From contig JAILGA010000057.1 in NCBI GenBank assembly GCA_024697225.1, forward strand, positions 1-64,000: DNA of 64,000 bases, in the 5' to 3' direction. Origin of the DNA: Lachnospiraceae bacterium. Its GTDB lineage: Bacteria; Bacillota; Clostridia; Lachnospirales; Lachnospiraceae. Both the position numbers and the translations under genes were made by a program. Each line of letters opens with the position of its first letter. Positions within the stretch are counted from its first letter, which is position 1. The notes below the pieces were generated by a model. The model ran no database searches, was not told the DNA's origin, and saw nothing but the letters and a program-made list of their open reading frames with translations. Below, piece after piece: positions 8,705 to 53,891 of the stretch.

Positions 8705-8816
8705 GTGGGCACTGTATCTTTGAGCATGCAGTTTAGACATTCGGGTTTAGTGATTTTTGGTTTGAAACCAGTATTCAAAGAAAGTATCATTGTAATCACG
8801 AAAGGGGGACATGCCA

Positions 8817-10820
8817 ATGTCTGAAAAGAAGATCATTTACGTTAACGCATCTGCGTCCCGCGAAGGGAACGGAAGCAAAGAGATGCCGTTCAGGCACATC
8901 AATGACGCTGCAAAGGTGGCGGGACCGGGAGATGAAGTCCTTGTTGCGCCGGGGATATACAGGGAATACGTCAATCCCATAAACGCAGGGTTGGAGGACG
9001 CGCCCGTCGTATATCGCTCCGAAAAACCGCTTGGGGCTGTGATAACGGGCGCTGAAGAGTTAAAGGGCTGGAAAAAGTATATGGGCACGACATGGACAGT
9101 GCGTGTAAACAACGGGATCTTCGGTTCATATCATCCCTATAAGACATTTGTGTGCGGGGACTGGTATTTCTCGCCGATAGTCAGACACACAGGCTGTATC
9201 TTTCTTAATGATCTTGCAATGTATGAGGCGGTTACTCTCGATGAGTGCCTGAAAGCCACGCCGGATGAATATGCCTGGAACGCCGAGGAATCAAGATACA
9301 AATGGTTCACGGAGCAGGACGGCGATGAGACTGTTTTCTACGCCAATTTCCGGGGACTTGATCCCAATAAGGAAAATGTCGAGCTCACTGTCAGGAGAAA
9401 CTGCTTCATGCCTGACAAGAACCATGTAAACTATATCACTGTCAGCGGTTTTAACATCAACAAGGCAGCAACTACCTGGGCGCCTCCCGCGGCATATCAG
9501 GACGGCATGATAGGGCCTCACTGGAGCAAGGGCTGGATCATCGAGGACTGCGAGATCTACGGAAGCCGCTGCTGCGGTATCTCGCTGGGCAAATATCTCG
9601 ATCCCGAGAATGATATGTATTTCACGAAAAAGCACGTGAAGAGTCCCACTCAGATGGAGCGCGATGCGGTGTGCCGCGGTCAGTATCACGGCTGGACAAA
9701 GGAGAATATCGGCTCGCATATCATCCGCCGCTGTCACGTTCATCACTGTGAGCAGACAGGTATCGTGGGAAGAATGGGCGCTGTCTTTTCAACCATTGAG
9801 GACTGTCACATCCATCATGTCTGCAATTCTTCGCAGCTTGGTGGTGCCGAGACCGCAGGTATCAAGCTTCACGCGGCAATTGACGTGACCATAAGGCGCA
9901 ATCACATACACAACTGCATACAGGGCGTATGGCTCGATTGGGAGGCTCAGGGCGCCAGGATCACACAGAATCTTATGCACGACAATCACAGACCTGACGG
10001 CGTGAAAACCAGGAATGGCATCATGTTCAATACGGACGTGTTCATCGAGGTCGGCCACGGTCCCACACTTATCGATAACAATGTACTTCTTTCAAAGGTT
10101 TCGATAACCATCCCGAGTGAGGGTATCGCCTGTGTGCACAATCTCTGCCTCGGATCCTTCAGCCTGATCAATTCCGGCGTCGACAGCGTGGTGAACGGCC
10201 AGCGCGAGCCCCGTTACACACCTTACCACATCCGCCACAGGACGGAGGTTGCCGGCTTTATGACGATCCTTCACGGCGATGACAGGATCTACAACAATAT
10301 CTTCATCCAGCACTACAAGATAGAGGATAAGAAGAAAAAGCCCACTGATGCGGATTATATGGCAGTTGGAACAGCTGCCTTCAATATCTTTCCCACGTGG
10401 GAGGAGTGGCATGAGCCATTTGCCGGTGACGGAATGCCCGACATGGGCGCTCTTGCAAAGGCGCACTTCGGACATCTGCCTGTGTGGGTGAAGGGCAATG
10501 CCTACTTCAACGGCGCAAATGTATGCAAGCACGAGAAGGAAAAGTTTGTTGACAAGAAGGACAAGGTTACGATCCAGCTGGTGGAGAAGAACGGGAAATA
10601 TACTCTCAAGACCAACCTGTATTCGTTCCTGGGGGACTTCAGATGCGGCATCATCACAAGTGACATACTTGGATGCGCTTTTGAGCCTGAGCAGAGGTTT
10701 GAATCTCCTGACGGCAGCGCCATCACCTTTGACAGCGACTATTTCGGAAATCACCGCGGCGTCTTTGCACTTCCCGGACCGTTTGCGGATGAAAAGGCCT
10801 GCACAAAGGCATTGGTCTGA
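8817..10820 (+). CDS. GH120 beta-xylosidase
   Basis: A 667-residue protein without signal peptide. It matches, along its whole length, the right-handed parallel beta-helix GH120 xylosidase XylC of Thermoanaerobacterium as I remember it. The shared landmarks are GDEVLVAPGIYREYV, VYANF-type FYANFRGLDPN, TTWAPPAAYQ, IGPHWSKGWIIEDCEIY, AGIKLHAAIDV, GVWLDWEAQG and FIEVGHGP. The Asp of WLDWEAQG (about residue 374) and the Glu of FIEVGHGP (about 411) occupy the positions of the XylC nucleophile and acid/base. About 14 extra residues (KTRNGIMFNT region) lie between them. ATG 8817 is preferred over 8811 because AAGGGGG lies 8 bases upstream. It should release xylose from imported xylo-oligosaccharides. 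Confidence 0.85.
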   Translation: MSEKKIIYVNASASREGNGSKEMPFRHINDAAKVAGPGDEVLVAPGIYREYVNPINAGLEDAPVVYRSEKPLGAVITGAEELKGWKKYMGTTWTVRVNNGIFGSYHPYKTFVCGDWYFSPIVRHTGCIFLNDLAMYEAVTLDECLKATPDEYAWNAEESRYKWFTEQDGDETVFYANFRGLDPNKENVELTVRRNCFMPDKNHVNYITVSGFNINKAATTWAPPAAYQDGMIGPHWSKGWIIEDCEIYGSRCCGISLGKYLDPENDMYFTKKHVKSPTQMERDAVCRGQYHGWTKENIGSHIIRRCHVHHCEQTGIVGRMGAVFSTIEDCHIHHVCNSSQLGGAETAGIKLHAAIDVTIRRNHIHNCIQGVWLDWEAQGARITQNLMHDNHRPDGVKTRNGIMFNTDVFIEVGHGPTLIDNNVLLSKVSITIPSEGIACVHNLCLGSFSLINSGVDSVVNGQREPRYTPYHIRHRTEVAGFMTILHGDDRIYNNIFIQHYKIEDKKKKPTDADYMAVGTAAFNIFPTWEEWHEPFAGDGMPDMGALAKAHFGHLPVWVKGNAYFNGANVCKHEKEKFVDKKDKVTIQLVEKNGKYTLKTNLYSFLGDFRCGIITSDILGCAFEPEQRFESPDGSAITFDSDYFGNHRGVFALPGPFADEKACTKALV

Positions 10821-10984
10821 GTATTGACTGTAAAAGAACCGCCGTGAAAATGCAGCAAAAAGAACTGACAGACCGGTACGGAAGCAGGATCACGAAAAGA
10901 GCAGTATGAAAAGACTGGTAAGAGTTTATCGGAAAAGGGCAGCACATAACTGACAGAAAAGAGAAGTCAGATATGAGAGTGCGA

Positions 10985-11016
10985 AAAACCGCGGCACAGT
11001 TTAGTGCCGCGGTTTT
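10985..11016 (+). terminator. Intrinsic terminator after the GH120 gene (bidirectional)
   Basis: The arms AAAACCGCGGCAC (10985-10997) and GTGCCGCGGTTTT (11004-11016) pair around a 6-base loop, and TTTTCTTTTT follows on the forward strand. The A-run before it gives a short T-run on the reverse strand, so it can also stop the DUF6033 transcript. Confidence 0.85.
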
Positions 11017-11081
11017 CTTTTTATGCTGTTATTGCCGGAAATAGTTCGTCTTATTCTTCCTGCCTGAAAACTACTGAATTG

Positions 11082-11975
11082 TTATGCCTCGGCTATCTGC
11101 GACCAGTCTATGCCGCGCACCTTTTCGAGGAGTTCCGCACCGCTTTTTGCAGTGATCGTCGCAAATCTGACCGAATACTTTTCGCGAAGTTCGCTGGTTG
11201 CTTCCCCGCCGGGGCCTTCGGCCTTTTCTTTTACTGACTCTTCGGCTGCTTTCCTGGCTTCTTTCTTTTCATCAGCCCTTTCTTTACGGGCTTCCTCGGC
11301 AGCTTTCTTTGCATCTTCCTTTGCTGCGGCCTTTTTGTCCTCGGCTCTCTGTTCCCTGGCTGTTTCTGCGGCCTCGCGCTGTCTGGCAGAGACGTTCTCC
11401 ATCTCGGCAAATATCGAAATGGTGCCGTCGGCGTTTAAGGTGATGCCGAAACGGTTGAAGAAGGTGCCTGTCGCAATTCCGTTCTCGTCAGTATCGCCCG
11501 AGCCCAGTTCTTCAGTGAGCTTTCTGGCGGTGGCCACAGCGTCCTCGACGCGGCTCATCTGACTCTCGCCATAGGCCTCATCGTCAGCCATCCTCTCAAG
11601 TTCTTCATTTGAAAAGATTACCGAGAATTCTTTGCTGGTGCCTTTCATCAGCTCATCGAGATCATCCTCGTCATTTCCGACCACGAAATCATAGTCTCCG
11701 TACTTGTCGCGGAGCTTGTTCAGGTAGTTCTTTGCCTTGTCGGAAAGTTTGGATTCGTTGATCTGAGCGATGGTGCCGGTGCTTCCGGACTTGTTCAGGG
11801 CGGCCATTCCCTCTTTGGAAAAGGTCACATCAGCGGCCTTTCTGAAGGAGCCGGATTCTTTTTCTGCGGGTTTTCTGGCGCCCGTGTTTTTGCCGGCGGT
11901 CTTACCGGGCCCGTAACCGGCGGAAACCGCACCGGCAAGAAACTGATTATATGCCGAAGTTATATCTGTCCCCAT
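11082..11975 (-). CDS. DUF6033-type protein with Lys/Ala/Glu coiled coil
   Basis: A 297-residue hydrophilic protein of the DUF6033 type, a family of unknown function common in Lachnospiraceae. The N-terminus (TDITSAYNQFLAGA) is followed by a Gly/Lys-rich stretch. A conserved core has FSKEGMAALNKS, LSDKAKNYLNKLRDKYGDYD and FSVIFSNEELERMA (about residues 50-130). TGTFFNRFGITLNADGTISI comes next. An alanine/lysine/glutamate-rich helix of about 70 residues (AAAKEDAKKAAEEARKERAD) that should form a coiled coil precedes a short C-terminal domain. The repeated YGDYDF-V and D-Y-A features resemble those of flagellar-type secreted proteins, but no function is known. AAAGGAGGGC precedes ATG 11975. It is a single-gene unit on the reverse strand. 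Confidence 0.7.
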   Translation of the reverse strand: MGTDITSAYNQFLAGAVSAGYGPGKTAGKNTGARKPAEKESGSFRKAADVTFSKEGMAALNKSGSTGTIAQINESKLSDKAKNYLNKLRDKYGDYDFVVGNDEDDLDELMKGTSKEFSVIFSNEELERMADDEAYGESQMSRVEDAVATARKLTEELGSGDTDENGIATGTFFNRFGITLNADGTISIFAEMENVSARQREAAETAREQRAEDKKAAAKEDAKKAAEEARKERADEKKEARKAAEESVKEKAEGPGGEATSELREKYSVRFATITAKSGAELLEKVRGIDWSQIAEA

Positions 11976-39761: not shown

Positions 39762-39785
39762 AAGCTGAGGTGAGAGCCTCAGCTT
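39762..39785. terminator. Terminator between convergent epimerase and cyclase genes
   Basis: AAGCTGAGG (39762-39770) pairs with CCTCAGCTT (39777-39785) over a 6-base loop, with T-rich flanks on both strands; the reverse arm covers the end of the cyclase gene. Confidence 0.6.
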
Positions 39786-41146
39786 TTGCTGTCTGTTTTT
39801 CCGGTATAAAATGTGTACGTGTTTTTGCCCTGCTTCTTTGATTCGTACATGGCTCTGTCCGTTTTTTCAAACAGATTGGCGACATCGGTTGCAAGAGATC
39901 CGTGGACTATACCCACGCTTATGGAAACTGGCGGAAGACCGTCCCCGGGATTTGCGAGGTTTTGATTGATATGATCCAGCTTGGATTCGATCAGTCTCTT
40001 CTCCATTTTGCCCGAGTGGACCATGAGTACAACAAATTCATCGCCGCCCACACGGCATATGTAATCATTGTCGCGGAACGCCTTCTTCATCTCGCGGACA
40101 AGACTGATCAGCACATTGTCACCGGTCTCGTGACCGTAGGTATCGTTGATGGATTTGAAATTGTCCACGTCAAAAAGCATCATATAGGTAGTGTCCAGAT
40201 CGATGCCGGATAGGAGAAGATCATATCCGGCCCTGTTATAGGCGCCGGTCAGTTCATCGTGAGAGGCTTTGAAATTGAGCCTCTCAACGCTGCTTTTATA
40301 GGTTGAATACATCTTGTTGTATGCCTTGGCGAGATATCTGAATTCATTGGCGCCGACCTCGGGTATCGGGCTGTCTGCCTTGATCCTGTCCACGGCTTTG
40401 AGAACCGGGTGGACTCCGAGGAAGGAAGTCAGAAGCACCATGCATACGATAGAGAATACCTGGACAAATACGGCGGCAAACAGAATATTCCGCTCCTTAT
40501 ACAATCTGGAAAGTTCCTCACTTTCTGCACTGTGGGTGAGCTTGTCTATCTCATCGAGACTCTCGCGCATGGAATTGCGGATCATGTCTTTCTTGTCATA
40601 GTAGGCATCGTCAAGCACTATCTGCGTCGCGAGGCGCATCTTGTCTTCAGGGGGGAGATCTATATCGGTTTCCATTAACGGATAGTCCTTCAGGATCTCC
40701 GGATAATCGGTGTAGCCTTTTGCCTCTATCACAAGCCGCATGGCATAATATTCCCTGTCCATCAGTTCCACGGAATGGCTCATGGCTTCCCGGAGCTGTT
40801 TCACCGCAGCTGTGGTCCGCTCATCTATATCCATCATGGCGATCGCTTCCTCGCGGCGGTTTGCCTCAAATGCTTCCTGCATATAGTCATCGAGAAAACG
40901 TCTGTCTCCGTTGACCGTGAATCGCTGGACACTTTCCGTCAGAAAATCCGATGCATTCATAAGTTCATGGGCTGCTTTTTCGAGCTTGATATGCTCCTCC
41001 GTTGCAGCAGCAAGTCTTAAGAATGTGGCGGTAAGACGGTAGGTGAAAAACACCATGATCCCAGATACTATGACGGTTATGAGGATGAGGCAGATGTTTA
41101 TTACTCTGAGTGATATTCCTTTGTAAAACTTATTTGCAAAATCCAT
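39779..41146 (-). CDS. Membrane-bound GGDEF diguanylate cyclase
   Basis: A 455-residue protein with membrane helices at about 15-38 and 228-250 enclosing an extracytoplasmic helical sensor domain. A HAMP-like segment follows (GVHPVLKAVDRIKADSPIPE), then the GGDEF domain (DELTGAYNRAGYDLLLS, FDVDNFKSINDTYGHETGD, CRVGGDEFVVLM near 367). An RxxD inhibitory site (RDND) lies five residues before GGDEF, so product inhibition is expected. The C-terminus keeps LFEKTDRAMYESKKQGKN. It should be a c-di-GMP synthase responding to an external signal. It is transcribed divergently from the signalling cluster at 41.35 kb. Confidence 0.9.
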   Translation of the reverse strand: MDFANKFYKGISLRVINICLILITVIVSGIMVFFTYRLTATFLRLAAATEEHIKLEKAAHELMNASDFLTESVQRFTVNGDRRFLDDYMQEAFEANRREEAIAMMDIDERTTAAVKQLREAMSHSVELMDREYYAMRLVIEAKGYTDYPEILKDYPLMETDIDLPPEDKMRLATQIVLDDAYYDKKDMIRNSMRESLDEIDKLTHSAESEELSRLYKERNILFAAVFVQVFSIVCMVLLTSFLGVHPVLKAVDRIKADSPIPEVGANEFRYLAKAYNKMYSTYKSSVERLNFKASHDELTGAYNRAGYDLLLSGIDLDTTYMMLFDVDNFKSINDTYGHETGDNVLISLVREMKKAFRDNDYICRVGGDEFVVLMVHSGKMEKRLIESKLDHINQNLANPGDGLPPVSISVGIVHGSLATDVANLFEKTDRAMYESKKQGKNTYTFYTGKTDSKS

Positions 41147-41230
41147 ATGTCAGTTCCTGCCATAAAAAAATAATTGAGCATTATAGCACATGATCCCGCA
41201 TATGTCACTGAAATTTGCCGAAAAGGCTTG

Positions 41231-41258
41231 TTACAGACGGAAAAAATAGATGTAAAAT
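41231..41258 (+). promoter_or_regulatory. Possible promoter of the signalling cluster
   Basis: TTACAG (41231-41236) and TAAAAT (41253-41258) are 16 bases apart, about 95 bases before ATG 41353. It is the only plausible candidate seen between the divergent genes. Confidence 0.4.
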
Positions 41259-41352
41259 GCACCGGGTTCTGATGATTCTTGCACCGGATTCTTGATTGAA
41301 AAGCACAAAATTGATAAAATTAATTCTGATTGCACAGGAGGATGACCGGAAT

Positions 41353-43377
41353 ATGTACTATTCAAGTTTTGGCATACTGATCGTAATACTTCATCTGATA
41401 CTTAACTTTGAGATAATCAAGAACGGGGGAAAGGACCTTCAGCGCGGATCGCGCTTTCGTTACCGGCAGTTTCTGAATGCACTTCTTGCATTTTATATCA
41501 CGGATCTGCTGTGGGGATTTCTTGCGGAATCGAGGATACGCGTACTGGCATACTGCGACACGATGCTGTTTTTTGCCATAATGGCTGTATCCGTCCTTTT
41601 GTGGACAAAATTTGTCGCGGCATATCTGGGGAAGAGAGGGATAAAGGCCAGACTCTTCATTGCAGCCGGATGGGGGATCTTCGCTTTTGTTATCGCTGCT
41701 CTTGCCGTAAATATCTTTTATCCGTTTGTCTTTGCGTTCAATGAGGATGTGATATATGTGCCGTATCCCGGGCGCTATATGCTGCTGGGACTGCAGTTAA
41801 TACTGTTCATACTGATCTCCGTGTATTCCTTCTTTGCGACGATCAGAACGGAGGGGACAAAGAGGATCCATTATCTCACTATCTGCGCATCGGGCGGCGT
41901 GATGGCGCTTTTTATATTTTTGCAGGTATTCGACGCCTTTGCGCCTTTTTACGCGATCGGATGTTTTATCGCAAACTGCCTGATACACGTATTTGTCGAA
42001 GAAAATGTAAAGAAGGAAAAAGAGCGGATCACCGAAAAGGCACAGAAGGAAAAGGAGAGATACAGTCAGGTCGCCGCAAGCCTTGCCTCGGATTATGAAG
42101 CGATCTATTACATCAATATCGAAACCGGAAAGTATATCGAGATAACCGCCAGTGATACATACAGATCCCTGGATGTTCCGAGTATCGGCGAGGATTTTTA
42201 CAAAGAGACCCGCGAGAACGCTGCGAGATATGCGCATCCTGATGACCGCGCTTTTGCGGTGAGCATGTACTACAAAGAGACTATGCTGAAGAATCTTGCG
42301 GGAAAGAAATCGTATTCGTACAAATACAGGATAATGGTCGGAGAGGAGGCGAGATATTTCCGCTTCGTCGTGATGCTTTCGAAAGACGGGGAGCATTTTG
42401 TGCTGTGCGACAAGGATATACATGACACCATTACAGCCGAGACAGCTCTTCTGGAAAAACAGAAGATGAGCATCACTTTCAGTCAGATAGCGGAGAGCCT
42501 GGCGTCCAATTACGACGTCATCTATTATGTGAACGCAAAAACCGGAGAATATGTGGGATATACGTCGCACAATATCTACGGCGGCCTCAATGTCAATGAG
42601 ACCGGCAGTGATTTCTTTGCGGAGGCGAAAAGGAATATTTCTATCATTATCCATCCGAGGGACAGGGAACGGCTTCTTTCAACCCTGAACAAGGATTATC
42701 TGCTGACTAATCTTGAGAGCAGGAAACAGGTATCGGTGCAATACCGCCATATCATCAATAATCATATACAGCATACAAGGTTTTCCGTCAGAAAATCCAG
42801 CGACGGAGAGCATCTTATCATCGTCGTTGAAAATATCGATGATGAGATCAAGAGAGAGCAGGAGCACATGCTCGCGCTGAATACCGAGAAGGAACTGGCC
42901 AGGCGCGATGAACTGACCGGCACGAGAAACAAAACCGCATACAATGAGTTTGAACAGTCAATACAGGAGAATATGGAGAATTCCATGGACTGTCAGCCTT
43001 TTGCGATCGCGGTATTTGATCTCAACGATCTCAAGAGGATTAATGACACCGAAGGCCATAAGGCCGGAGACGAGTATATAAAGTCTTCCGCAAAGGTCCT
43101 TTGCGATGTATTTGCTCACAGTCCTGTATTCCGTATAGGAGGCGATGAATTCGCGATTTATCTGTGCGGCGCCGACTATGATTCGAGAGAGGAGCTGATC
43201 GATAGGATCCGCAGAAGCTCCTGCGCCAACTGCAAAAGCGGCAGCGGCCCTGTTATTGCGGCGGGTATGGCGGAATATGATCCGGATAATGACACTGCGG
43301 TTACGGAGATATTTGACCGCGCAGACCGGCAGATGTATGAAGACAAACGCGAGATTAAGAAAGGCATAGGCGGGTGA
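41353..43377 (+). CDS. Membrane GGDEF protein with two PAS-like repeats (cluster gene 1)
   Basis: A 674-residue protein starting at ATG 41353, 11 bases after CAGGAGG; a TTG start at 41296 is less likely. Seven hydrophobic helices fill residues 1-215. A helical linker and two tandem related sensor segments follow (SLASDYEAIYYINIETGKY and SLASNYDVIYYVNAKTGEYV), each of about 125 residues. The GGDEF domain ends the protein (DELTGTRNKTAYNEFEQS, FRIGGDEFAIYLCG), without the RxxD inhibitory site. The duplicated sensor segments look like PAS folds. It heads a run of eight forward genes. Confidence 0.9.
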   Translation: MYYSSFGILIVILHLILNFEIIKNGGKDLQRGSRFRYRQFLNALLAFYITDLLWGFLAESRIRVLAYCDTMLFFAIMAVSVLLWTKFVAAYLGKRGIKARLFIAAGWGIFAFVIAALAVNIFYPFVFAFNEDVIYVPYPGRYMLLGLQLILFILISVYSFFATIRTEGTKRIHYLTICASGGVMALFIFLQVFDAFAPFYAIGCFIANCLIHVFVEENVKKEKERITEKAQKEKERYSQVAASLASDYEAIYYINIETGKYIEITASDTYRSLDVPSIGEDFYKETRENAARYAHPDDRAFAVSMYYKETMLKNLAGKKSYSYKYRIMVGEEARYFRFVVMLSKDGEHFVLCDKDIHDTITAETALLEKQKMSITFSQIAESLASNYDVIYYVNAKTGEYVGYTSHNIYGGLNVNETGSDFFAEAKRNISIIIHPRDRERLLSTLNKDYLLTNLESRKQVSVQYRHIINNHIQHTRFSVRKSSDGEHLIIVVENIDDEIKREQEHMLALNTEKELARRDELTGTRNKTAYNEFEQSIQENMENSMDCQPFAIAVFDLNDLKRINDTEGHKAGDEYIKSSAKVLCDVFAHSPVFRIGGDEFAIYLCGADYDSREELIDRIRRSSCANCKSGSGPVIAAGMAEYDPDNDTAVTEIFDRADRQMYEDKREIKKGIGG

Positions 43378-43435
43378 AATCATTCTGTTTTTGGCGATCA
43401 TCCGGTTTTTGACTGCAGGAGAGGATGGAGAATAA

Positions 43436-44788
43436 ATGGGTTACTGGGTTGTGGTGGTGGATGATGAGCCGTTGAGCCTTACAAACGCCAAAAATCTGCT
43501 GCATGAACAGAATATGCGTGTCAGCTGTATCAGATCGGGAAAGGAGTTTCTTTCCTTCATTGAGAAGAATACGCCCGATCTGGTATTGCTTGATATCATG
43601 ATGCCCGAGATGGACGGTTTTGAAACTTATCGTGCGCTCAGGCTTTTTGAGGAACGCTCGGAGAGAGCCCAGATTCCTGTCATATTCCTGACGGGCGAGG
43701 ATGACAGCGAAATCGAACGCAGAGGATTGAAGGCCGGGGCGTCGGATTTCATACATAAACCCTTTGACAAGGAAATCCTGATCAGCCGTGTAAAAAATAC
43801 GATCGAAAACAGCAAAACCATTGAGGCGCTCACCGAGGAGGCCACATTCGACAAGCTCACAGGGTTCCTCAATAAGGCCAGCGGGATCGGGAGAATTGCG
43901 GAACTGTGCAGAAGTGTCTCCGGGGCACTTTTGATCCTTGATCTCGACAATTTCAAGCTGGTGAACGACCTGTACGGACACGATATGGGTGACAGGATCC
44001 TGGTCGCTTTTGCGAGCGTCGTAAGACTGAATGTCAGATCCGATGATGTGATATGCAGGATAGGCGGGGACGAATTCCTGGGTTTCTTTGCGGATATGAA
44101 CACGGAGGATGCGGTTGCCACTTTTACGGGAAGGCTGAATGACCAGCTGGCCGGGGAAGCGGAAAAACTGATGGGCAGCGAGCATGGCATACCGCTTGGG
44201 ATATCCGTCGGAGCAGTTTTTACCGATGAGCAGACAAAAGAATACCAGTTCCTCTTCCAGCGTGCGGACAGTGCTCTGTATGAGGCAAAGCGCAACGGCA
44301 AACACGATTACAGGATTTTTGATCCGGATGTTACATCAGAGGACGGAAAAGCGGATCTGGACGGCGAGATAGTGAGGCTTACACAGATACTTTCCGAACG
44401 CAACAATGCAGCGGGAGCCATGATCCTGGGACGGGAAGCTTTTTCCTGGATCTATCGCTATACAGACAGACTGCTGTCCCGCTACGGGGGGCTTTCCGCG
44501 CGGATCCTGTTCTCACTTTCTTCGGATGACAGCGGAATCATCTTCTCGGATATGGTCGCGGGATTCGGCAATGTTCTCAGAACTACACTCAGAAAGACCG
44601 ATATCATAATGCAGTGGCAGCAGAACATGTATTTCCTTGTGCTGCCGTTTCGCTCGAGGAAGGATACCGGGAGAGTGGTGGAAAGGATACTGAAAAGATG
44701 GCATGACGTAGAGAACAGTGACAGGATCAGGATACAATACACGGCGGTCTATGCAGAAAAGGAAGAATATGAACTTAAGGAACAATGA
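43436..44788 (+). CDS. Response regulator with GGDEF output (cluster gene 2)
   Basis: A 450-residue protein. The receiver domain occupies residues 1-122, with VVDDEP, Asp53 in VLLDIMMPEMDG, Thr in FLTGEDD and Lys in IHKPFD. GGDEF is at about 140-300 (DKLTGFLNKASGIGR, LDLDNFKLVNDLYGHDMGD, CRIGGDEFLGFF), with an RSDD inhibitory site five residues before GGDEF. An additional C-terminal domain of about 140 residues (ILGREAFSWIYRYTDRLLSR onward) may hold a second, degenerate cyclase-like fold, because it ends like a nucleotide-cyclase beta strand. It is a probable phosphorylation-controlled cyclase fed by the kinases encoded next. Confidence 0.92.
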   Translation: MGYWVVVVDDEPLSLTNAKNLLHEQNMRVSCIRSGKEFLSFIEKNTPDLVLLDIMMPEMDGFETYRALRLFEERSERAQIPVIFLTGEDDSEIERRGLKAGASDFIHKPFDKEILISRVKNTIENSKTIEALTEEATFDKLTGFLNKASGIGRIAELCRSVSGALLILDLDNFKLVNDLYGHDMGDRILVAFASVVRLNVRSDDVICRIGGDEFLGFFADMNTEDAVATFTGRLNDQLAGEAEKLMGSEHGIPLGISVGAVFTDEQTKEYQFLFQRADSALYEAKRNGKHDYRIFDPDVTSEDGKADLDGEIVRLTQILSERNNAAGAMILGREAFSWIYRYTDRLLSRYGGLSARILFSLSSDDSGIIFSDMVAGFGNVLRTTLRKTDIIMQWQQNMYFLVLPFRSRKDTGRVVERILKRWHDVENSDRIRIQYTAVYAEKEEYELKEQ

Positions 44789-46820
44789 GAAGTTTGTCAT
44801 GTTTGTCATAACCGTGGCTTCTCTGGGACTTGCCGTGGAGAATGTCTTTATGGGATGGGAATTCTGGGTACCTCCCGTGATATTTTTCGGCACGGTACTT
44901 TTGTGGGGCATCCAGTTATCGGGGCAGATCGAATATGGCATCCGGAAAGTGTTTCTCTTTGTCGCAGAATGTCTCATTATCTTTTACCACGGCGTTCATA
45001 AGACGAGTCTTTTTGATATTGCGCTGGTGATCGTCCTTGCGATGGCAACGTATTCGATGCTCGATACCCTGTATATGATGCACATACTGCTGCTGGAATT
45101 TCTGGTCCTTATGTTTATTCAGCTGATCAACCTGCCGGGAGGCAATCCGATCGTCTATGACAGGATCACCGTATCGAGACTGCTGCTTCATACATGTATC
45201 GTACTGCTTATCTATTTTTTTTCTGTCAAGTCCATCAACAATCATCTGGATGACGAGGAGGAGACCAGGATCAGGAATGAGCGCATCGCATTGAACGACA
45301 GCAGCACGGAGGATTTTCTGTCCAATATATCACATGAGTTGCGCACGCCTGTAAATGTAGTGAACGGTATGTCCGATCTGCTGATAAAGAGAGGAGTCGG
45401 AAGCGAGGCGGATTCCATCAGAAATGCCGGTGTACGGCTTGCATACCAGATCGAGGATATACAGGATTACACTGAGTGCAGGAGACATAAGGTGTTAATT
45501 GAGGAAGACAATTACATGAGCACTTCCCTGATCAACGATGTTGTCACGAGCTTCCGGACGAATGATGCAGCCGAAAAGCTTGAACTGGTAGTAGACTTGA
45601 GTCCCTCGGTTCCAATGATGATGAGGGGAGATATCAGAAAACTTCACAAGATATTCAGACATCTGCTGGAGAACGCCGTCAAGTTCACGAGGGCCGGCGG
45701 TATATATGTCAAGATGTATACAGAAAAGACGGATTACGGTGTCAATCTGATGATAGAGATGACAGATACAGGGATCGGAATGGATAAGCTGGCCATTAAG
45801 CAGATCACTGAGGGAATGTATCAGGCAAATAAGAAAAGAAACCGGAGTTCAGGGGGAATTGGTCTCGGACTTTTCATTGTATATGGCTTTGCCCACGAGA
45901 TGGGAGGTTTTGTTAAGATCGAGAGCGAGAGGCGAGTCGGAACAACGGTTCGTGTGACTTTGCCGCAAAAGGTCATTGATCCCAAACCCTGTCTGGTATT
46001 GGACGAGGACTTTGACGGAGTGGTGTTATTCCATGTGAGACCTGATAAGTACAAGGTTCCCAGGCTGCGTGATTTCTACCGTAGTATGGCTGCGAATCTC
46101 GCATACGGGATAAAGGTCCCCCTTTATCCGGCGGAAACGGTTTATGAGGTGGAACGTCTCAGGGAGAAACTTCCTGTAACGCATGTTTTTATGGGACAGG
46201 AGGAGTATGAGGAGAACCGCGGCTATTTTGAGGAGCTGGCAAAGGAGGATATCGTGGTAGCCGTTTCGGCCGGACCGGATGTCAGACTGCCCGAAAACAG
46301 CAGGGTAGTACTGATGCCCAAGCCCCTGTACGCGTATCCGGCAATAAAGATCCTGAACGCGGGAAGAGATGCCGGGGATACGGATGGCTGTGATAATGCG
46401 GAAAGACCGGTGTTCAAAGGCTGCAGGGCGCTGGTTGTGGATGATGAACCCATGAATCTTGTTGTGGCGTCCTCTCTCTTCAGGGATTACGAGATGGAGG
46501 TGGACACTGCGGGAAGCGGCAGAGAGGCCATCAGCAAATGCCGTGACAACGAGTATGAGCTGGTATTCATGGACCACATGATGCCTGAGATGGACGGCGT
46601 CGAGGCAATGAAACTGATCAAGGCCCAGGCTTCGGATATGGGACGGAAGCAGAATGTGATCGCACTTACCGCCAATGCGGTCTCAGGAGCAAGAGAGATG
46701 TTCATTCAGGAGGGATTTGACGGTTTTATCGCGAAGCCCATAAATACGGCGGATTTTGAGAGAGTTGTACAAAGGGTACTATCCGGAACTGAAGCAGACA
46801 GGGGAGGGGAAGCAAAATGA
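44769..46820 (+). CDS. Hybrid histidine kinase with receiver domain (cluster gene 3)
   Basis: A 683-residue protein. ATG 44769 overlaps the upstream gene and follows AAAAGGAAG. Five or six membrane helices fill residues 1-155 without an extracellular domain of note. The kinase core has FLSNISHELRTPVN with the His at about residue 189, then LLENAVKFTR (N box), DTGIGM (G1) and SGGIGLGLFIVYG (G2). A segment of about 120 residues (VVLFHVRPDKYKVPRLRDFY) without phosphorylation Asp looks like a degenerate receiver. A true receiver follows with VVDDEPMNLVV, VFMDHMMPEMDG and a Lys in FIAKPIN. A 4-base overlap joins it to the next kinase. Confidence 0.92.
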   Translation: MNLRNNEKFVMFVITVASLGLAVENVFMGWEFWVPPVIFFGTVLLWGIQLSGQIEYGIRKVFLFVAECLIIFYHGVHKTSLFDIALVIVLAMATYSMLDTLYMMHILLLEFLVLMFIQLINLPGGNPIVYDRITVSRLLLHTCIVLLIYFFSVKSINNHLDDEEETRIRNERIALNDSSTEDFLSNISHELRTPVNVVNGMSDLLIKRGVGSEADSIRNAGVRLAYQIEDIQDYTECRRHKVLIEEDNYMSTSLINDVVTSFRTNDAAEKLELVVDLSPSVPMMMRGDIRKLHKIFRHLLENAVKFTRAGGIYVKMYTEKTDYGVNLMIEMTDTGIGMDKLAIKQITEGMYQANKKRNRSSGGIGLGLFIVYGFAHEMGGFVKIESERRVGTTVRVTLPQKVIDPKPCLVLDEDFDGVVLFHVRPDKYKVPRLRDFYRSMAANLAYGIKVPLYPAETVYEVERLREKLPVTHVFMGQEEYEENRGYFEELAKEDIVVAVSAGPDVRLPENSRVVLMPKPLYAYPAIKILNAGRDAGDTDGCDNAERPVFKGCRALVVDDEPMNLVVASSLFRDYEMEVDTAGSGREAISKCRDNEYELVFMDHMMPEMDGVEAMKLIKAQASDMGRKQNVIALTANAVSGAREMFIQEGFDGFIAKPINTADFERVVQRVLSGTEADRGGEAK

Positions 46821-49800
46821 GTCCGATCAAACTGATAAGATCAGCCCTTGCCGCTGTCAGGGATCCTGAAAGGGATTTGACGGAACGGGTGTTTCTTATA
46901 CTGACATTTATATCTGAGGTGACGGTGGGCATAGCGTTCATCGGCGATCTGATCACTGGGGAGAGCCTTCCGGAGCTCATCGTTCTCGCTGCAGTACTGA
47001 TACTTGTGCCGATGCTTACATTGATATGTCTGCATCTGAACAGGCTTGAGGTGGCGATTCGGATCATCACGCTCTGCCTTGTGATCCTGATCATTCCGCT
47101 CCTGTTTTTCTTCGGGGGCGGTCTGAAGGGTGGCGGTTTTCTCTGGATCATTTTTGCATTCATATATGCAGGGCTTGTCCTGAAAGGGAAATGGAGGATC
47201 GTGATCTTTATCCTGATCCCGTTCCAGACGCTATTATGCTTCGTGATCGCCTATCACCACCCGGAGTTTGTGTATACTCATTCCCGGCAGATGTATTACG
47301 TGGATATCTTCCTCTCCCTTATCATGGTTGGAATGCTGTGCTACATCATGGCCTGGAGCCAGGGAAAACTCTTTGCCGAAGAAAACAAAAGGGCGAGGAA
47401 TGAGGCCAAGCGTGCGGAGGATCTCACCCGCTCACAGAATCGTTTCTTTTCGAACATGAGTCACGAGATCCGCACGCCCATCAATTCCATTCTGGGACTC
47501 AACGAGCTGATCCTTCGTGATCAGGAGGCCACAGAGGAGATCATCCGCGATGCGTCCGGGATACAGGGCTCCGGTAAGATGCTGCTTTCCCTGATCAATG
47601 ATATTCTTGATTTTTCCAAGATCGAAGCAGGCAGTATGGATATAGTGCCGGTGGATTACCGGATCGGGGATATGCTGTCAGAGATAGTGAATATGATGTG
47701 GCTTCGCGCACGCGATAAGGGGCTGGACTTTGAGGTGAGCATTGATCCCGAGGTTCCTGCCGTGCTCTACGGTGATGAGGTCCGGATCAAACAGGTGATC
47801 ATCAATCTTCTAAACAACGCCGTGAAGTACACCAAAGAGGGACGCGTGGAGCTGAGGCTGGACAGCAGCAGCGTCGATGATGATACCGTGGAGCTGGTGA
47901 TATCTGTTTCGGATACAGGTATGGGTATCAAAAAGGAGGATATGCCGTATCTGTTCGATGCGTTCAAACGGGTAGATGAGGGGAAAAACAGGCATATAGA
48001 GGGAACCGGACTGGGACTTTCCATAGTCAGTCAGCTCATCGAACTTATGGACGGGAATATCCGGGTAAACAGTGTCTATGGTGAGGGTTCCACCTTTACC
48101 TGTACTATCCGTCAGAAGGTGACCGACCGCACTCAGGTGGGCGAGCTCAATATCCACAACCAGCAGAACGGCAGAAGAAGCAATTATGAGAGCAGTTTTC
48201 TGGCTCCGGAGGTACGGATCCTGATCGTGGACGATAATGAAATGAATCTTGAGGTGGAACGAAGGCTCCTCACGGATACAGATATGGGCATCGATACCGC
48301 AAAGAACGGTAAAGAGGCTCTGGACAAATGCCTGAAGGTTCATTACGATACCATATTCATGGATCATCTCATGCCTGAGATGGACGGTATAGAGTGCCTT
48401 GAGCAGTTGAGGGAACAGGAGGGCGGCCTCAACCGGACGACACCGGTGATAATCCTTACAGCCAATGCGGGAAGCGAGAACAGAGAACTGTACAACAGGG
48501 CGGGCTTCGATGGCTATCTGGTGAAACCTGTTTCGGGACAGGCAATGGAGGAAATGCTGATCCGGCATATCCCGGGTGATAAGCTCATCCTGCGTTCAGT
48601 GCTCAAGGGAGACGACGAGGAGATACATACCGCTGACAGATATGCGGAAAAGGTACCGGTTATCATCACCTCCTCAAGTATGTGCGATCTTCCCGATTCA
48701 GTGATAAGAAAGCTCCATATTCCGATCATACCGTTTGTGATCACGACTGAACAGGGGGTCTTCAAGGACGGGGTTCATATTGATGCCTATGAGATGATAC
48801 GGCATCTAAGTTCCGGCAAAAGTGCCGTCTCATCGCCGCCTGATGAGGCGCAGTATACGGAGTTTTTTGCGGACGTATTAAAGAGGACCCATCATGTCAT
48901 CCATATCTCGATCACAACGAGTATGAGCGAGGAGTTTCATGTGGCAGGTGAGGCCGCAAAATCCTTTGATAATGTGACAGTCATTAATTCCGAATGCATC
49001 TCAAGCGCCACAGGTATTCTGGTCCTTATCGCATATAAGCTCGTGCAGCAGGGAATTCCGGCGCAGGAGATCGTCCAAGAACTGGAGTCTGTCAAGAAAC
49101 GATTAAAATGCAGCTTTGTCATTGATACTACGGATTATCTGGCTAAAAAGAGTCTGATCGGCAAAAATCTGCACAGGATCGCGCAGACATTGAACCTTCA
49201 CCCGGCGCTCACCATCAGAGAGGACCGGACAGGGATCGGCGGTGTATGGTCGGGAAGGACCAGACGCGCCTATCGGAAATATATCAGCAGGGCGCTTCCG
49301 CCGGATACGATACCGGATGCGGATGTGGTGTTCATAACATATGTTGATCTCACGGCGGAAACACTTATGTGGATCGAAGAGGAGATCCGAAAGACCGCAT
49401 ATTTCGAGCATGTGGTCTTTCAGCAGGCATCCGCGGCCATATCGTCCAATTGCGGTCCCGGAACCTTCGGGATACTGTACTTCTTAAAATCCAACAAGTC
49501 CTATAATATCGCATCCTTCCTTGATTACAGATCCGGGAAAGGGGAGAGCGCGGACAGCGGAGATCAGGATGTGTACGGGGAAGCGATGCCCGGGGCTGAG
49601 GATGAAATGCAGGATGAGGATACTTATGATGAAGACTTCGATCCTGATGATGAGGAATACACGGAGACATCATCAGATGACGGTGATGATGTTTCCGCTA
49701 AGGCATGGTATGACGGAATCGCCGGTCTGGATGTAAAGACCGCCATTGCAAACAGTGGTTCTGAAAGTGCTTTTGGGGCAGTGCTGAAGATCTTCTATGA

Positions 49801-50290
49801 GTCCATACCGGACAAGCATGCGGAACTGGAAAGAAATTACTCATCGGAGGACTGGGGGAGTTATACGATCAAGATACATGCCTTAAAGAGTTCCGCCAGA
49901 CTGGTGGGGGCCATGGAACTCGGTGCTGCCGCCGAGAGTCTGGAGATGGCGGGCAAGGAGGGTGATATCGCTTATATCAGAGATCATCACGCAGCCGTCA
50001 TGGGGGATTATCTGAAATATCATGAGATCCTTGCTCCTGTATTTGCAGGCGAAGGCGGCGCAGAGCAGGAAGAGGACACAAGACCTGAGGCAGATGATTT
50101 CCTCATGGAGAGCATATATGAGGAACTTGCCGATGCGGCAGAAAATATGGATTGTGACCGGGTGGAGGCGATCATGAAGGAGATCGGGGAGTACCGCATC
50201 CCGGATACGGAGAAGGAACGGTTTGAAAAGGTTCGCGGAAAGGCCGGTATCTTTGATTATGAGGGAATCCTCTCGGCGATCGGGCCGTAA
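46817..50290 (+). CDS. Hybrid kinase-REC-DegV-HPt fusion protein (cluster gene 4)
   Basis: A 1157-residue protein with six domains. Membrane helices fill 25-180. The kinase core has His216 in FSNMSHEIRT, LLNNAVKYTK, DTGMGI and GTGLGLSIV. The receiver (about 465-590) has Asp516 in FMDHLMPEMDG and Lys570 in YLVKPV. Residues 613-905 match the DegV/EDD lipid-binding fold: PVIITSSSMCDLPDSVIRKL, IPFVITTEQGVFKDGVHIDA, the SSPP motif, HISITTSMSEEF, and INSECISSATGILVLIAYKL. An acidic linker precedes a histidine phosphotransfer domain (960-1075) with His1021 in IHALKSSARLVGA. The last 70 residues are helical. DegV proteins bind fatty acids and usually stand alone or work with FakA. Confidence 0.93.
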   Translation: MSPIKLIRSALAAVRDPERDLTERVFLILTFISEVTVGIAFIGDLITGESLPELIVLAAVLILVPMLTLICLHLNRLEVAIRIITLCLVILIIPLLFFFGGGLKGGGFLWIIFAFIYAGLVLKGKWRIVIFILIPFQTLLCFVIAYHHPEFVYTHSRQMYYVDIFLSLIMVGMLCYIMAWSQGKLFAEENKRARNEAKRAEDLTRSQNRFFSNMSHEIRTPINSILGLNELILRDQEATEEIIRDASGIQGSGKMLLSLINDILDFSKIEAGSMDIVPVDYRIGDMLSEIVNMMWLRARDKGLDFEVSIDPEVPAVLYGDEVRIKQVIINLLNNAVKYTKEGRVELRLDSSSVDDDTVELVISVSDTGMGIKKEDMPYLFDAFKRVDEGKNRHIEGTGLGLSIVSQLIELMDGNIRVNSVYGEGSTFTCTIRQKVTDRTQVGELNIHNQQNGRRSNYESSFLAPEVRILIVDDNEMNLEVERRLLTDTDMGIDTAKNGKEALDKCLKVHYDTIFMDHLMPEMDGIECLEQLREQEGGLNRTTPVIILTANAGSENRELYNRAGFDGYLVKPVSGQAMEEMLIRHIPGDKLILRSVLKGDDEEIHTADRYAEKVPVIITSSSMCDLPDSVIRKLHIPIIPFVITTEQGVFKDGVHIDAYEMIRHLSSGKSAVSSPPDEAQYTEFFADVLKRTHHVIHISITTSMSEEFHVAGEAAKSFDNVTVINSECISSATGILVLIAYKLVQQGIPAQEIVQELESVKKRLKCSFVIDTTDYLAKKSLIGKNLHRIAQTLNLHPALTIREDRTGIGGVWSGRTRRAYRKYISRALPPDTIPDADVVFITYVDLTAETLMWIEEEIRKTAYFEHVVFQQASAAISSNCGPGTFGILYFLKSNKSYNIASFLDYRSGKGESADSGDQDVYGEAMPGAEDEMQDEDTYDEDFDPDDEEYTETSSDDGDDVSAKAWYDGIAGLDVKTAIANSGSESAFGAVLKIFYESIPDKHAELERNYSSEDWGSYTIKIHALKSSARLVGAMELGAAAESLEMAGKEGDIAYIRDHHAAVMGDYLKYHEILAPVFAGEGGAEQEEDTRPEADDFLMESIYEELADAAENMDCDRVEAIMKEIGEYRIPDTEKERFEKVRGKAGIFDYEGILSAIGP

Positions 50291-50532: not shown

Positions 50533-50567
50533 CGTGTGGTACGCCATACATTGTAAAGGAGGTTAAT

Positions 50568-51533
50568 ATGCTTGTAGAGCTTAAAGAGGCAGTCAGGCTG
50601 ATCAATGAAGGAAGAACGCTTCACATCGCGGCGGACGATATGCTTTTGAAGCAGCTCCCGAAAGGAAAGTGGGTCGGAGGTACCACACCCTATTTTATCG
50701 GAGATGAGGGCGGCATATTTTCCAGGGATCTGCTGTTTGTCAATGAGATCGATTATGCGGACGAAATCTCCGTCAGTGTCTACGGTAAATATAATGTCTT
50801 TCAGCTGGTGGAAGAATGCTACGACAACGGGCTGGCGATCCTCATAATGCCGTACGGCTCCAATGTGGCGGCCAAGTATGCCAGGGAGGCACCCGAGGTT
50901 GAGGAGCTTTTGATGCATCCAACATTTGGCTGGATATCAGGTTATGATCTCGATGCCGGCGGCGAGGCAAAGGTCTATGACGGGACGACCGGCACCTCCT
51001 ATACCGACAGAGCCGTGGTGATGTATCTCAGGCTCCCGGAGGGAAAGACGGCCATGATCAACATGATCAATATCTTTGAGGACGACAAGACCGATCCCGT
51101 CATTCGGTTCCATGAGAACGACCTGAGTGTGAAAAAGTGCACCGTAAACGGACAGGAAGTGGATTTTGCAGAGTATATCCGGAAGAAGGGAATTGACACC
51201 AGAATGCCGCTCGTGGCAGATTATAACGGATCCTATTTCAATATATCCGTAAAGAGTATCGAAGACGACAGGGTCAGTTTCTACGCGCCGGTATTTAAAA
51301 ACGTGGACTATCGTTTTGCGGTCCGGGTGGACGATTATGCCGCGGAATTTGAAAAGAGGATCGCGGAGGCGGGTGCACGGAATCCGGTGATGTCCTGCAA
51401 CTGCATACTTAATTACCGTTACGGTGAGCTTAACGGCAGGAAGATCCCGCCGTATACAGGACCGGTCACTTTTGGCGAAGTGGCCTATCAGCTGTTAAAT
51501 CAGACGCTGGTCTACTGTGAGATTTTGGGATAA
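50568..51533 (+). CDS. FIST-like ligand-sensing protein (cluster gene 6)
   Basis: A 321-residue soluble protein starting at ATG 50568 behind AAAGGAGG. Two parts resemble the FIST_N and FIST_C sensor domains. The first has WVGGTTPYFIGD, matching the Gly-Cys-Ser/Thr-Ala-Gly-Glu loop position, and GYDLDAGGEAKVYDG with DRAVVMYLRL. The second has CNCILNYRYGE, then VTFGEVAYQLLNQTLVY, the characteristic last motif. FIST domains bind small ligands such as amino acids and are normally fused to or encoded with kinases. The gene lies between the kinase fusion and an amino-acid symporter. It was not recognised by name; a DUF with this pattern may exist. Confidence 0.65.
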   Translation: MLVELKEAVRLINEGRTLHIAADDMLLKQLPKGKWVGGTTPYFIGDEGGIFSRDLLFVNEIDYADEISVSVYGKYNVFQLVEECYDNGLAILIMPYGSNVAAKYAREAPEVEELLMHPTFGWISGYDLDAGGEAKVYDGTTGTSYTDRAVVMYLRLPEGKTAMINMINIFEDDKTDPVIRFHENDLSVKKCTVNGQEVDFAEYIRKKGIDTRMPLVADYNGSYFNISVKSIEDDRVSFYAPVFKNVDYRFAVRVDDYAAEFEKRIAEAGARNPVMSCNCILNYRYGELNGRKIPPYTGPVTFGEVAYQLLNQTLVYCEILG

Positions 51534-51536
51534 GTG

Positions 51537-53060
51537 ATGGATACCGTAATCAGGATCAATGATGCGGTCAATTCCTTTGCGTGGGGGACCTTCGGCCTCG
51601 CCATACTACTGGGCACGGGGTTTGTCTGCTCCCTGGTCACGGGTTTCTTTCAGATCACGCATCTGAAGCACTGGATGAGCAGAACCTTTGGAGTCATGCG
51701 TGGGCAGGGCCGGATCATCAACGATGCCGGAGCGCTGTCTCAGTTCAGAGCATTCTGTACGGCGCTGTGCGCGACGATCGGGACCGGGAATATCGCCGGT
51801 GTTTCCACGGCTATCTGCTTCGGCGGACCGGGTGCTGTCCTCTGGATGTGGGTGGCTGCCTTTTTCGGAATGATGGTCAAATATGCCGAAAACGTGCTGG
51901 GACTGTATTATCGCCGCCGCAACCGGGAGGGGTCGTGGTCGGGTGGTCCGATGTATTATCTGGAGGATGGACTTGGATCGATCAGGCATTGCAGAGTGCC
52001 GGGAAAACTCCTCGGGATCCTTTTCTGCATCTTCACGGTGTTAGCTTCATTCGGAATAGGCAACATGGCTCAGATAAATAAGATCACCATCAATTTTGAG
52101 TCGGCTTTTCTGAACGGGGTTGATATGGGAACGTTTCTCGGCGCACCGAGCGTCGACTGGCTTATCGGAGTGATACTGATGATCTCGGCCGCGATCATCA
52201 TTCTGGGCGGTTTCCGGCGGCTCGCCGCGGTTTCTGAGAAGCTGATCCCGATCATGTCCATAGCCTATATTGTGGGATGCCTTTTTATGATCATGCTGCG
52301 TCTACCGATGCTTCCCGCTGTGTTTGCATCGATCTTCCGGTGTGCATTCGGCCCGTTGGCCTTAAAGGGCGGCCTTGCAGGGACAGCAGTGCAGATAGCA
52401 TTCAATACGATCAAGAACGGCTGTAAGAGGGGAGTTTTTTCCAACGAGGCGGGTCTGGGATCTTCGGTTATGGTGCACAGCAACAGCTGCGTGAGGGAGC
52501 CTGTCCGTCAGGGAATGTGGGGCATCGCGGAGGTCTTTCTGGATACCATGGTCATCTGTACAATGACGGCGATCGTAGTCTTAAGCTCCGGCGCGATCGA
52601 CCTGAATACCGGTATGGTAAAGGACGGGGTCAATGATTCAACGCTTGTCGCCAAGGCGTTCGGGGCGTCATTCGGAAGACCGGGAGAGTGGTTTGTGGTA
52701 ATAGTGATCACACTGTTTGCCTTTACAACGGTGCTTGGATGGTCGTATTATGGAGCAAAGGTGACTGAATATCTGCTGGGGGTCACCTGCAGCAGGATAT
52801 ACCGGCTGGTGTTTATCGGGCTGATAGTTTTCGGCGCGGTGATGGAGTCCAATCTTGCATGGGATATTTCGGATACGTTCAACGGTCTTATGATGATCCC
52901 GAACCTGATCGGGCTTATCGTGCACATACCGCTGATCATTAAGCTTACACGCAACTATACGGACCGGAGGATACGGGGTAAAGACATCGCACCCATACTC
53001 TCCTTTGATCCGGATATTCAGCATGAGGCGCAGGCAGCAGTGCAGAGGGGATTGGATTAG
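51537..53060 (+). CDS. Sodium:alanine/glycine symporter family (AGCS) (cluster gene 7)
   Basis: A 507-residue membrane protein of the alanine or glycine:cation symporter family. Landmarks are GTGFVCSLVTGFFQITHLKHW, FCTALCATIGTGNIAGVSTA, GGPGAVLWMWVAAFFGMMVKYAE, WSGGPMYYLEDG, FSNEAGLGSSVMVHSN and VLGWSYYGAKVTEYLLG. About ten membrane helices are visible. GTG 51534 directly precedes ATG 51537; the ribosome site overlaps the stop of the FIST-like gene, so translation is probably coupled. It should import alanine, glycine or related amino acids with sodium. Confidence 0.93.
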   Translation: MDTVIRINDAVNSFAWGTFGLAILLGTGFVCSLVTGFFQITHLKHWMSRTFGVMRGQGRIINDAGALSQFRAFCTALCATIGTGNIAGVSTAICFGGPGAVLWMWVAAFFGMMVKYAENVLGLYYRRRNREGSWSGGPMYYLEDGLGSIRHCRVPGKLLGILFCIFTVLASFGIGNMAQINKITINFESAFLNGVDMGTFLGAPSVDWLIGVILMISAAIIILGGFRRLAAVSEKLIPIMSIAYIVGCLFMIMLRLPMLPAVFASIFRCAFGPLALKGGLAGTAVQIAFNTIKNGCKRGVFSNEAGLGSSVMVHSNSCVREPVRQGMWGIAEVFLDTMVICTMTAIVVLSSGAIDLNTGMVKDGVNDSTLVAKAFGASFGRPGEWFVVIVITLFAFTTVLGWSYYGAKVTEYLLGVTCSRIYRLVFIGLIVFGAVMESNLAWDISDTFNGLMMIPNLIGLIVHIPLIIKLTRNYTDRRIRGKDIAPILSFDPDIQHEAQAAVQRGLD

Positions 53061-53126: not shown

Positions 53127-53891
53127 ATGAACGAAGAGATCAAAAACATCGTCATCCTGGTACTGCAATACAGTGTGGTCGTAAAAGGTATTGAACGGAA
53201 GCTGAATGATGCAAAATTCCAGACAACCGTTTTGACGGATTCTTTTGACAGGATCAGAGATATGTCAGGCACGACAGATCTGTTCATCCTGTATCTTCCG
53301 GGGGATTGCAGCAACAAGGCGGATGTGCTGGAAAAACTGGTATATATCTGCGATCAGGTCAAGAGAACAGGCAGAAACATGATCATGATCGGGGAAGCCA
53401 ACGATCATCCCGAATTGGTGAAGAAGGCGCATGTGATCTCGGATTTCCCATGGCTTGACAGACCCATAGAGATGGATGTCCTCCGGCCCGCGATCGAAGC
53501 GGCGATCGAAGGCAAGACCGTGAGCGTCGGAAAGAAGAGGATCCTGATCGTGGATGACGATCCATCTTATGCCAAAATGGTGCGTGAGTGGATAAAGAGC
53601 GATTATCAGACCAGTGTCGTTACCGCAGGCATGCAGGCGATAACATTTTTGCTGAAGAATCCTGTGGATATGATCCTGCTTGACTATGAGATGCCCGTTG
53701 TCGACGGCCCGCAGGTGCTGCAGATGCTGCGTCAGGAGCCTGCCACTGCAAAGATACCTGTGATCTTTCTTACAGGCGTGGGCACAAAGGATGCGGTGGA
53801 GCGCGTTATGGCGCTGAAACCTGACGGGTACGTCCTGAAATCAACTACAAGGGAGAATCTCCTGAAATATCTGCGCGGCAAAGTGCGGTAG
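53127..53891 (+). CDS. Response regulator with degenerate plus intact receiver (cluster gene 8)
   Basis: A 254-residue protein with two receiver-like halves. The first (1-128) has lost the phosphorylation Asp: the strand reads DLFILYLPGD. The second (135-253) is intact, with IVDDDPSYAK, Asp186 in ILLDYEMPVVDG, Thr in FLTGVG and Lys in YVLKSTT. No DNA-binding or enzymatic output is attached, so it should act by protein contact, like CheY-type relays. ATG 53127 follows GGAGGATAC. It ends the cluster. Confidence 0.9.
   Translation: MNEEIKNIVILVLQYSVVVKGIERKLNDAKFQTTVLTDSFDRIRDMSGTTDLFILYLPGDCSNKADVLEKLVYICDQVKRTGRNMIMIGEANDHPELVKKAHVISDFPWLDRPIEMDVLRPAIEAAIEGKTVSVGKKRILIVDDDPSYAKMVREWIKSDYQTSVVTAGMQAITFLLKNPVDMILLDYEMPVVDGPQVLQMLRQEPATAKIPVIFLTGVGTKDAVERVMALKPDGYVLKSTTRENLLKYLRGKVR

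Follow-up and report, generated by a model that had tools for sequence, protein, structure and literature searches.

A 64,000-nucleotide stretch of DNA from a Lachnospiraceae bacterium (assembly GCA_024697225.1, contig JAILGA010000057.1, positions 1 to 64,000 of the forward strand), referred to here as the window, encodes a membrane-bound hybrid histidine kinase in which a DegV domain is placed between the receiver (REC) and the histidine phosphotransfer (HPt) domain. The kinase, here called HK2, spans 46817..50290, starts with ATG and comprises 1157 amino acids (aa); all features of the window discussed below lie on the + strand unless noted otherwise. From its N-terminus, HK2 displays six transmembrane (TM) helices (residues about 21-182; 46877..47362; hydropathy and AlphaFold2), a HisKA domain with phospho-acceptor His216 (47435..47632; Pfam match to residues 207-272, E 1.9e-17), HATPase_c (47771..48115; 319-433, E 8.9e-28), a receiver with phospho-acceptor Asp516 (48218..48556; Response_reg, 468-580, E 2.4e-24), the DegV/EDD domain (residues 613-905; 48653..49531; Pfam, NCBIfam, AlphaFold2 and Foldseek) and an HPt domain with phospho-acceptor His1021 (49781..49963; Hpt, 989-1049, E 2.6e-8). 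All Pfam matches are above the curated cut-offs, and the combination of His216, HATPase, Asp516 and His1021 in one chain is that of a hybrid kinase with its own HPt. A preliminary description, made from the sequence alone, had recognized this same domain order, including the HPt that our profile search recovers, and had correctly placed His216, Asp516, His1021 and the motifs SSPP (672-675) and ITTSMS (699-704).

The N-terminal region is modelled by AlphaFold2 as six TM helices with a mean predicted local distance difference test score (pLDDT) of 92.8, and an unbroken helix (residues 157-209) leads from the membrane into HisKA. Its likeness to the Pfam families 6TM_PilS and MASE11 is weak and under the cut-offs, hence no sensory family was assigned, and its top fold match in the PDB, the adenylyl cyclase Rv1625c (E 0.072, TMq 0.54), was not used either. 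For the C-terminal tail after the HPt (50072..50287), Pfam yields nothing up to an E of 5. This tail of ~ 70 aa recurs at the end of further hybrid kinases from related loci (domain rows: 93 from HK2, 40 from others) and can be described as an unnamed HPt-associated tail.

The identity of the inserted domain is consistent between sequence profiles and predicted structure. The search with the DegV profile PF02645, which had been set beforehand as the refuting test of the preliminary description, returned a match to residues 617-889 with E 1.4e-35 (123.5 bits against a cut-off of 27), and NCBIfam TIGR00762 (DegV) scores 141.7 bits against a cut-off of 99.7. An AlphaFold2 model of residues 601-912, built from 80 aligned sequences, reaches a pLDDT of 89.5 and a predicted template-modelling (TM) score of 0.88. 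When this model was submitted to Foldseek, the best match was 1pzx (E 6.4e-26, TM-scores 0.82/0.88), with FakB2 (4x9x) in third place. Among the 50 matches listed, the first 45 are DegV/FakB structures, and those DegV/FakB titles that name any ligand name a fatty acid or a lipid. As modelled, the insertion between REC and HPt adopts the DegV/FakB-type fold, in agreement with the structural check that had been proposed for it.

Directly upstream of HK2 lies a second hybrid kinase, HK1 (44769..46820; ATG start), with a TM-HisKA-HATPase-REC order and no HPt. HK1 overlaps HK2 by 4 bp; its longest open reading frame begins at a GTG at 44718. No Pfam family matches the stretch between its HATPase and REC domains up to an E of 5. 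A degenerate receiver was guessed for this stretch, as well as for the N-terminal half of a downstream receiver protein (REC2, below), which likewise is without a match at E up to 5; we do not claim it in either case.

The pairing of HK1 with HK2 recurs throughout the related loci. Among 106 fused frames, eight lie too near the end of their contig for an upstream gene to be visible, and HK1 is found directly upstream in 97 of the other 98, albeit in broken frames in a few of them; HK1 was outside the search query that found these loci, and the 106 pairs still include near-duplicates. If the start of HK2 is placed at the start codon closest to the stop of HK1, the two genes share 4 bp in 66 of 89 pairs and 1 bp in another eight. 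Two forms of the pair can be distinguished. Long HK2 proteins (about 1150 aa) bear the HPt, and their HK1 partners (about 690 aa) are without one; short HK2 proteins (about 900 aa) stop after DegV, and here the HPt resides on HK1 (830-1000 aa). In 88 complete pairs, an HPt with its His occurs on HK2 only in 72 cases (including L093, counted after discarding an empty HK1 match), on HK1 only in 10 and on both in none, so that exactly one partner carries it in 82 of 88. Outside the 88 stand 11 loci in which no HK1 frame was found (the eight contig ends, L143, and L092 and L147 with broken frames) and seven incomplete pairs (L043, L067, L072, L076, L078, L114 and L144). Catalytic motifs are largely retained in both partners: for HK1 and HK2, respectively, the His box is found in 88 and 88 of the 88 pairs, the N box in 86 and 88, G1 in 87 and 87, and the REC motif in 85 and 88. 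The G2 motif is recognized in 69 HK1 and 82 HK2 proteins, a lower count that may reflect a strict pattern. Judged by their sequences, HK1 and HK2 are co-encoded partners that as a rule possess one HPt between them.

The residues lining the putative pocket offer a greater level of detail about what the DegV domain could do. Excerpts of PMC8892158 describe the carboxylate network of FakB1 as Ser171-His270-Thr62-carboxylate-Ser95, assign Arg173 a required role in kinase catalysis (acyl phosphorylation) and Arg205 a role in binding FakA and the membrane, and report both arginines as completely conserved in FakB. We checked this numbering on FakB1 chains and transferred it by alignment to FakB2 and to the fused and standalone domains. 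In HK2, Ser672 (48830..48832) aligns with Thr62 and Ser704 (48926..48928) with Ser95, so that SSPP and ITTSMS do hold the hydroxyl positions that had been proposed for them. His270 is replaced by Asn878 (49448..49450), Arg173 by Leu and Arg205 by Ser. The columns of Ser672, Ser704 and Asn878 are each at least 90% conserved across 80 rows.

These differences are characteristic of the fused domains as a group. Ser or Thr at position 62 is found in 103 of 116 fused domains vs 36 of 36 standalone ones, Ser at position 95 in 100/116 vs 36/36, and Arg at position 173 in 23/116 vs 36/36; Arg205 is present in 34 of the 36 standalone domains. At position 270, the fused domains have Asn in 99 and His in 2 of 116 cases, and the standalone domains His in 26 and Tyr in 10 of 36. 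Since the 116 fused rows include near-duplicates, rows of at least 90% identity were collapsed, leaving 89 long and 19 short forms. The long forms then display Ser/Thr62 in 87, Ser95 in 87, Arg173 in 13, Arg205 in 2, Asn270 in 81 and His270 in 1, and the short forms Arg173 in 9, Arg205 in none, Asn270 in 12 and His270 in 1. At the level of alignment, the long-form DegV domains retain a distinct, conserved Ser-Ser-Asn polar set, while the short forms drift, which argues for a long-form ligand that is not presented to FakA. The retention of two hydroxyls together with the loss of the network His and of both arginines makes it probable that the DegV domain of HK2 is a sensor which derives from FakB and has been uncoupled from FakA, rather than a subunit of a fatty acid kinase. 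The link to FakA implied in the preliminary description hence does not carry over, given the Leu and Ser at the two arginine positions. Sensing of a fatty acid or lipid by this domain is plausible.

Of the seven DegV domains in the source genome, four are standalone and three belong to HK-REC-DegV kinase fusions (HK2 and two others). FakA is encoded elsewhere in this genome, as are the four standalone DegV proteins, so that the role of FakB does not require the fused domain. The survey of kinase-REC-DegV proteins suggested in the preliminary description reveals a wide distribution. With an open frame of more than 800 codons that contains a DegV match as the criterion, the fusion is present in 24 of 37 genomes of the same genus (Butyrivibrio, source included) and in 0 of 24 genomes from other families of the order, within a set of 61 related genomes. 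In one of the latter (G055:C32:123345-123938), a DegV match lies in a 603-codon frame, possibly a different DegV fusion. Larger samples, which overlap and in which four to five candidates were scored per genome, give lower bounds: at least 11 of 295 genomes of the order (the source, nine of other genera in the family and one of family f17), with five further genomes matching by the DegV part alone; at least 9 of 391 in the class, three of them in family f66; and at least 3 of 398 in the phylum, all of the same family. The fusion also occurs in contigs of strains, e.g., Butyrivibrio sp. XPD2002, MC2021 and LC3010. A plasmid collection yielded 16 records with DegV matches, all below 60% identity, and 14 of the 15 listed are annotated as DegV family proteins.

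A query combining REC and DegV gave fused frames in all of the best 80 of 557 loci, a set that by its construction favours fusions. In a tree made with a quick method, one branch (SH-aLRT, the Shimodaira-Hasegawa-like approximate likelihood ratio test, 100) separates 94 fused rows from 31 others (30 standalone domains and FakB2). Fused and standalone sets thus lie on either side of one branch; in this tree the fused domains form one clade, for which a single origin is the simplest reading.

Several neighbouring genes are candidates for the output of the pair. A REC-GGDEF protein (43436..44788; Pfam) overlaps the ATG of HK1 by 20 bp. Downstream of HK2 follow a DUF6976 protein (50562..51533; Pfam), an AgcS-type sodium:alanine symporter (51534..53060; Pfam and NCBIfam) and REC2 (53127..53891), which consists of the Pfam-unmatched N-terminal half and a REC domain, has no output domain found by Pfam and is a candidate relay target. 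Counted by similarity to the proteins of the window itself, so that distant versions are missed, long-form loci with sufficient room have REC2 downstream in 32 of 57 cases, AgcS within 7 kb in 23 of 57, DUF6976 in 13 of 57 and, in the 5 kb upstream, REC-GGDEF in 17 of 59; the respective counts for short-form loci are 1/15, 0/15, 0/15 and 0/6, the loci of family f66 being without room for the REC-GGDEF count. In all three loci of that distant family, the gene immediately before HK1 encodes a GGDEF protein, with a REC-GGDEF-REC order by Pfam in the two that were scanned. An EAL protein follows one DegV kinase pair of the source genome. The proposal that a cyclic di-GMP (c-di-GMP) output lies nearby is supported for the source locus, where the REC-GGDEF gene overlaps HK1, and does not extend to the loci at large, given its presence in only 17 of 59 long-form loci. 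Gene content suggests that c-di-GMP is likely an output at the source locus, one among several and not universal.

Some further features of these neighbourhoods were observed. In the window, three adjacent GGDEF proteins, one on the - strand, lie beside the kinase pair (39779-44788). In L112 (2247-12022), two DegV kinase pairs stand in tandem, each then followed by a REC2-like protein. In L072, HK1 is without the REC motif region at its end and, by eye, the end of HK2 (about 8603-11923) resembles the N-terminal half of REC2. A frame in which a receiver and an HPt-like part can be seen by eye (L008, 7-1068) lies upstream of the source genome's second pair, beyond genes resembling those of an ABC transporter.

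The best explanation that we can offer for the locus as a whole is a two-kinase phosphorelay with one HPt collecting the phosphate, gated by a FakB-derived, acyl-lipid-binding DegV domain; we propose it tentatively, as it falls somewhat short of being probable. In such a relay, the two co-encoded membrane hybrid kinases would both feed their own REC domains, and the single HPt, on HK2 in the window, would gather the phosphate and hand it to REC-GGDEF and/or REC2. The DegV domain would be a descendant of FakB that has ceased to serve FakA yet can still accommodate an amphipathic ligand; a fatty acid or another acyl lipid from the nearby membrane would be the most likely candidate. Binding of this ligand might shift REC relative to HPt, making the flow through the relay dependent on the lipid state. 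A stronger version, in which a captured fatty-acid carrier fold, stripped of its contacts with a kinase partner and equipped with a new Ser-Ser-Asn pocket, senses lipid directly inside the cell, gates an HPt common to two co-translated membrane kinases and sets the c-di-GMP level in rumen Butyrivibrio, appears unlikely. Taken as a whole, the interpretation in the preliminary description is partly supported, and the co-encoded kinase pair, the single HPt per pair, Asn878 in place of the network His and the loss of both arginines go beyond it.

A number of observations weigh against the proposed lipid-gated relay. In 5 of the 88 pairs, HK1 carries an HPt without its His and HK2 carries none; the acceptor is replaced by Arg in L009 (11502-14003, - strand), Asn in L151, Ser in L152, Asn in L153 and Glu in L159. 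In favour of the relay, another protein encoded nearby offers an HPt that retains its His in four of these loci (L009, L151, L153 and L159); none was found in L152. In L044, HK1 and HK2 both lack an HPt, and the pair is followed by a separate HPt-like frame of 112 aa. In L072, the His of HK1 (554 aa) is replaced by Gln and neither partner has an HPt. In L143, a lone receiver gene (1-620) and not HK1 directly precedes the DegV kinase, the sequence before it being cut off. Moreover, whether HK1 or HK2 bears the HPt tracks the division of the DegV tree into long and short forms, so that the counts may rest on one or two events. As for the ligand, the hydroxyls are often lost in the short forms (Ser/Thr62 in 8 of 19, Ser95 in 5 of 19), so that ligand binding may not be general; the DegV model is, its ends aside, weakest at residues 771-810 (block means 73-85), where the Arg173 equivalent is located; and the AgcS gene in 23 of 57 long-form loci hints at amino acids.

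One alternative is that the DegV domain is a structural or docking module that has lost ligand binding and positions REC and HPt or docks HK1, with the six TM helices of HK1 and/or HK2 providing the input. Loss of the network His and both arginines, frequent loss of the hydroxyls in the short forms and the tight coupling of HK1 and HK2, which suggests protein contacts, all agree with this. However, conservation of at least 90% at the Ser672, Ser704 and Asn878 columns is beyond the needs of a plain spacer, and we consider such a module an unlikely, if serious, alternative. Alternatively, the ligand sensed by the domain could be neutral or not a lipid at all, such as a compound connected with the adjoining AgcS symporter, with Asn878 reading a polar group. 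The exchange of His for Asn in 81 of 89 long forms and the AgcS genes of the long-form loci point in this direction; the absence of AgcS from all 15 short-form loci, as well as the fatty acids and lipids named by the ligand-bearing titles among the 50 fold matches listed, argue against it and render it rather improbable. A full FakB that presents fatty acid to FakA, the fusion coupling lipid activation to signalling, would fit with FakA being encoded in the genome, but the FakA-binding Arg205 and the catalytic Arg173 (roles as given in excerpts of PMC8892158) are Ser and Leu in HK2; with both lost, we judge a partnership with FakA very improbable. Chance acquisition of a domain that matters little to an otherwise ordinary hybrid kinase, or an artefact of assembly, is barely credible and was set aside on account of the conservation of the fusion in 24 of 37 same-genus genomes, several genera, two other families and strain contigs.

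Compared with known systems, the kinase parts of the lipid-gated relay proposed here are of known kinds; the DegV insertion together with the kinase pair is a new variation. HK2 shares the HisKA-HATPase-REC-HPt order, with His216, Asp516 and His1021, with tripartite kinases of the BarA/TorS/ArcB type, yet differs in the DegV domain between REC and HPt, in the co-encoded second hybrid kinase and in having, as a rule, one HPt per pair. Its scores are far below the NCBIfam equivalog cut-offs for BarA (330.5 vs 890 bits) and TorS (334.6 vs 676.5 bits). The domain resembles FakB/DegV proteins (FakB1 and FakB2 of S. aureus; PF02645) in fold, profile match and the two carboxylate-network hydroxyls. 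In contrast to these, it sits within a kinase, has Asn for the network His, has lost the FakA-binding and catalytic arginines, and belongs to a clade separate from the standalone DegV proteins compared. In S. aureus, the two-component system SaeRS is affected by way of the pool of free fatty acids, and FakA reduces this pool (PMC5539427). Fatty acids acting on a two-component system are common to that case and our proposal, but the abstract of that paper describes no fused binding domain.

Among the papers listed from the open-access literature, subscription journals being outside this scope, titles and the beginnings of abstracts contained no account of a DegV-histidine kinase fusion; domain databases may already list the HK-REC-DegV architecture. 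A DegV gene beside other regulators is mentioned in the part of PMC12688256 consulted. If the ligand is an acyl lipid, HK2 would provide a bacterial phosphorelay with a lipid input that acts directly in the cytosol, and since the DegV fold has many solved structures, this input is testable at once. The nature of the ligand also bears on a practical question, as Butyrivibrio performs biohydrogenation in the rumen and is harmed by unsaturated fatty acids (excerpts of PMC2836310). The ligand aside, a conserved pair with one HPt is a clear system for studying how paired hybrid kinases share a relay.

Reuse of an EDD-like kinase-subunit fold for regulation has a precedent in DhaQ/DhaS, which is a transcription system and not a histidine kinase. 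The last of the 50 Foldseek matches listed, at rank 50, is 2iu6, a weak match (TM-scores 0.54/0.52) whose entry title refers to regulation of the Lactococcus dha operon.

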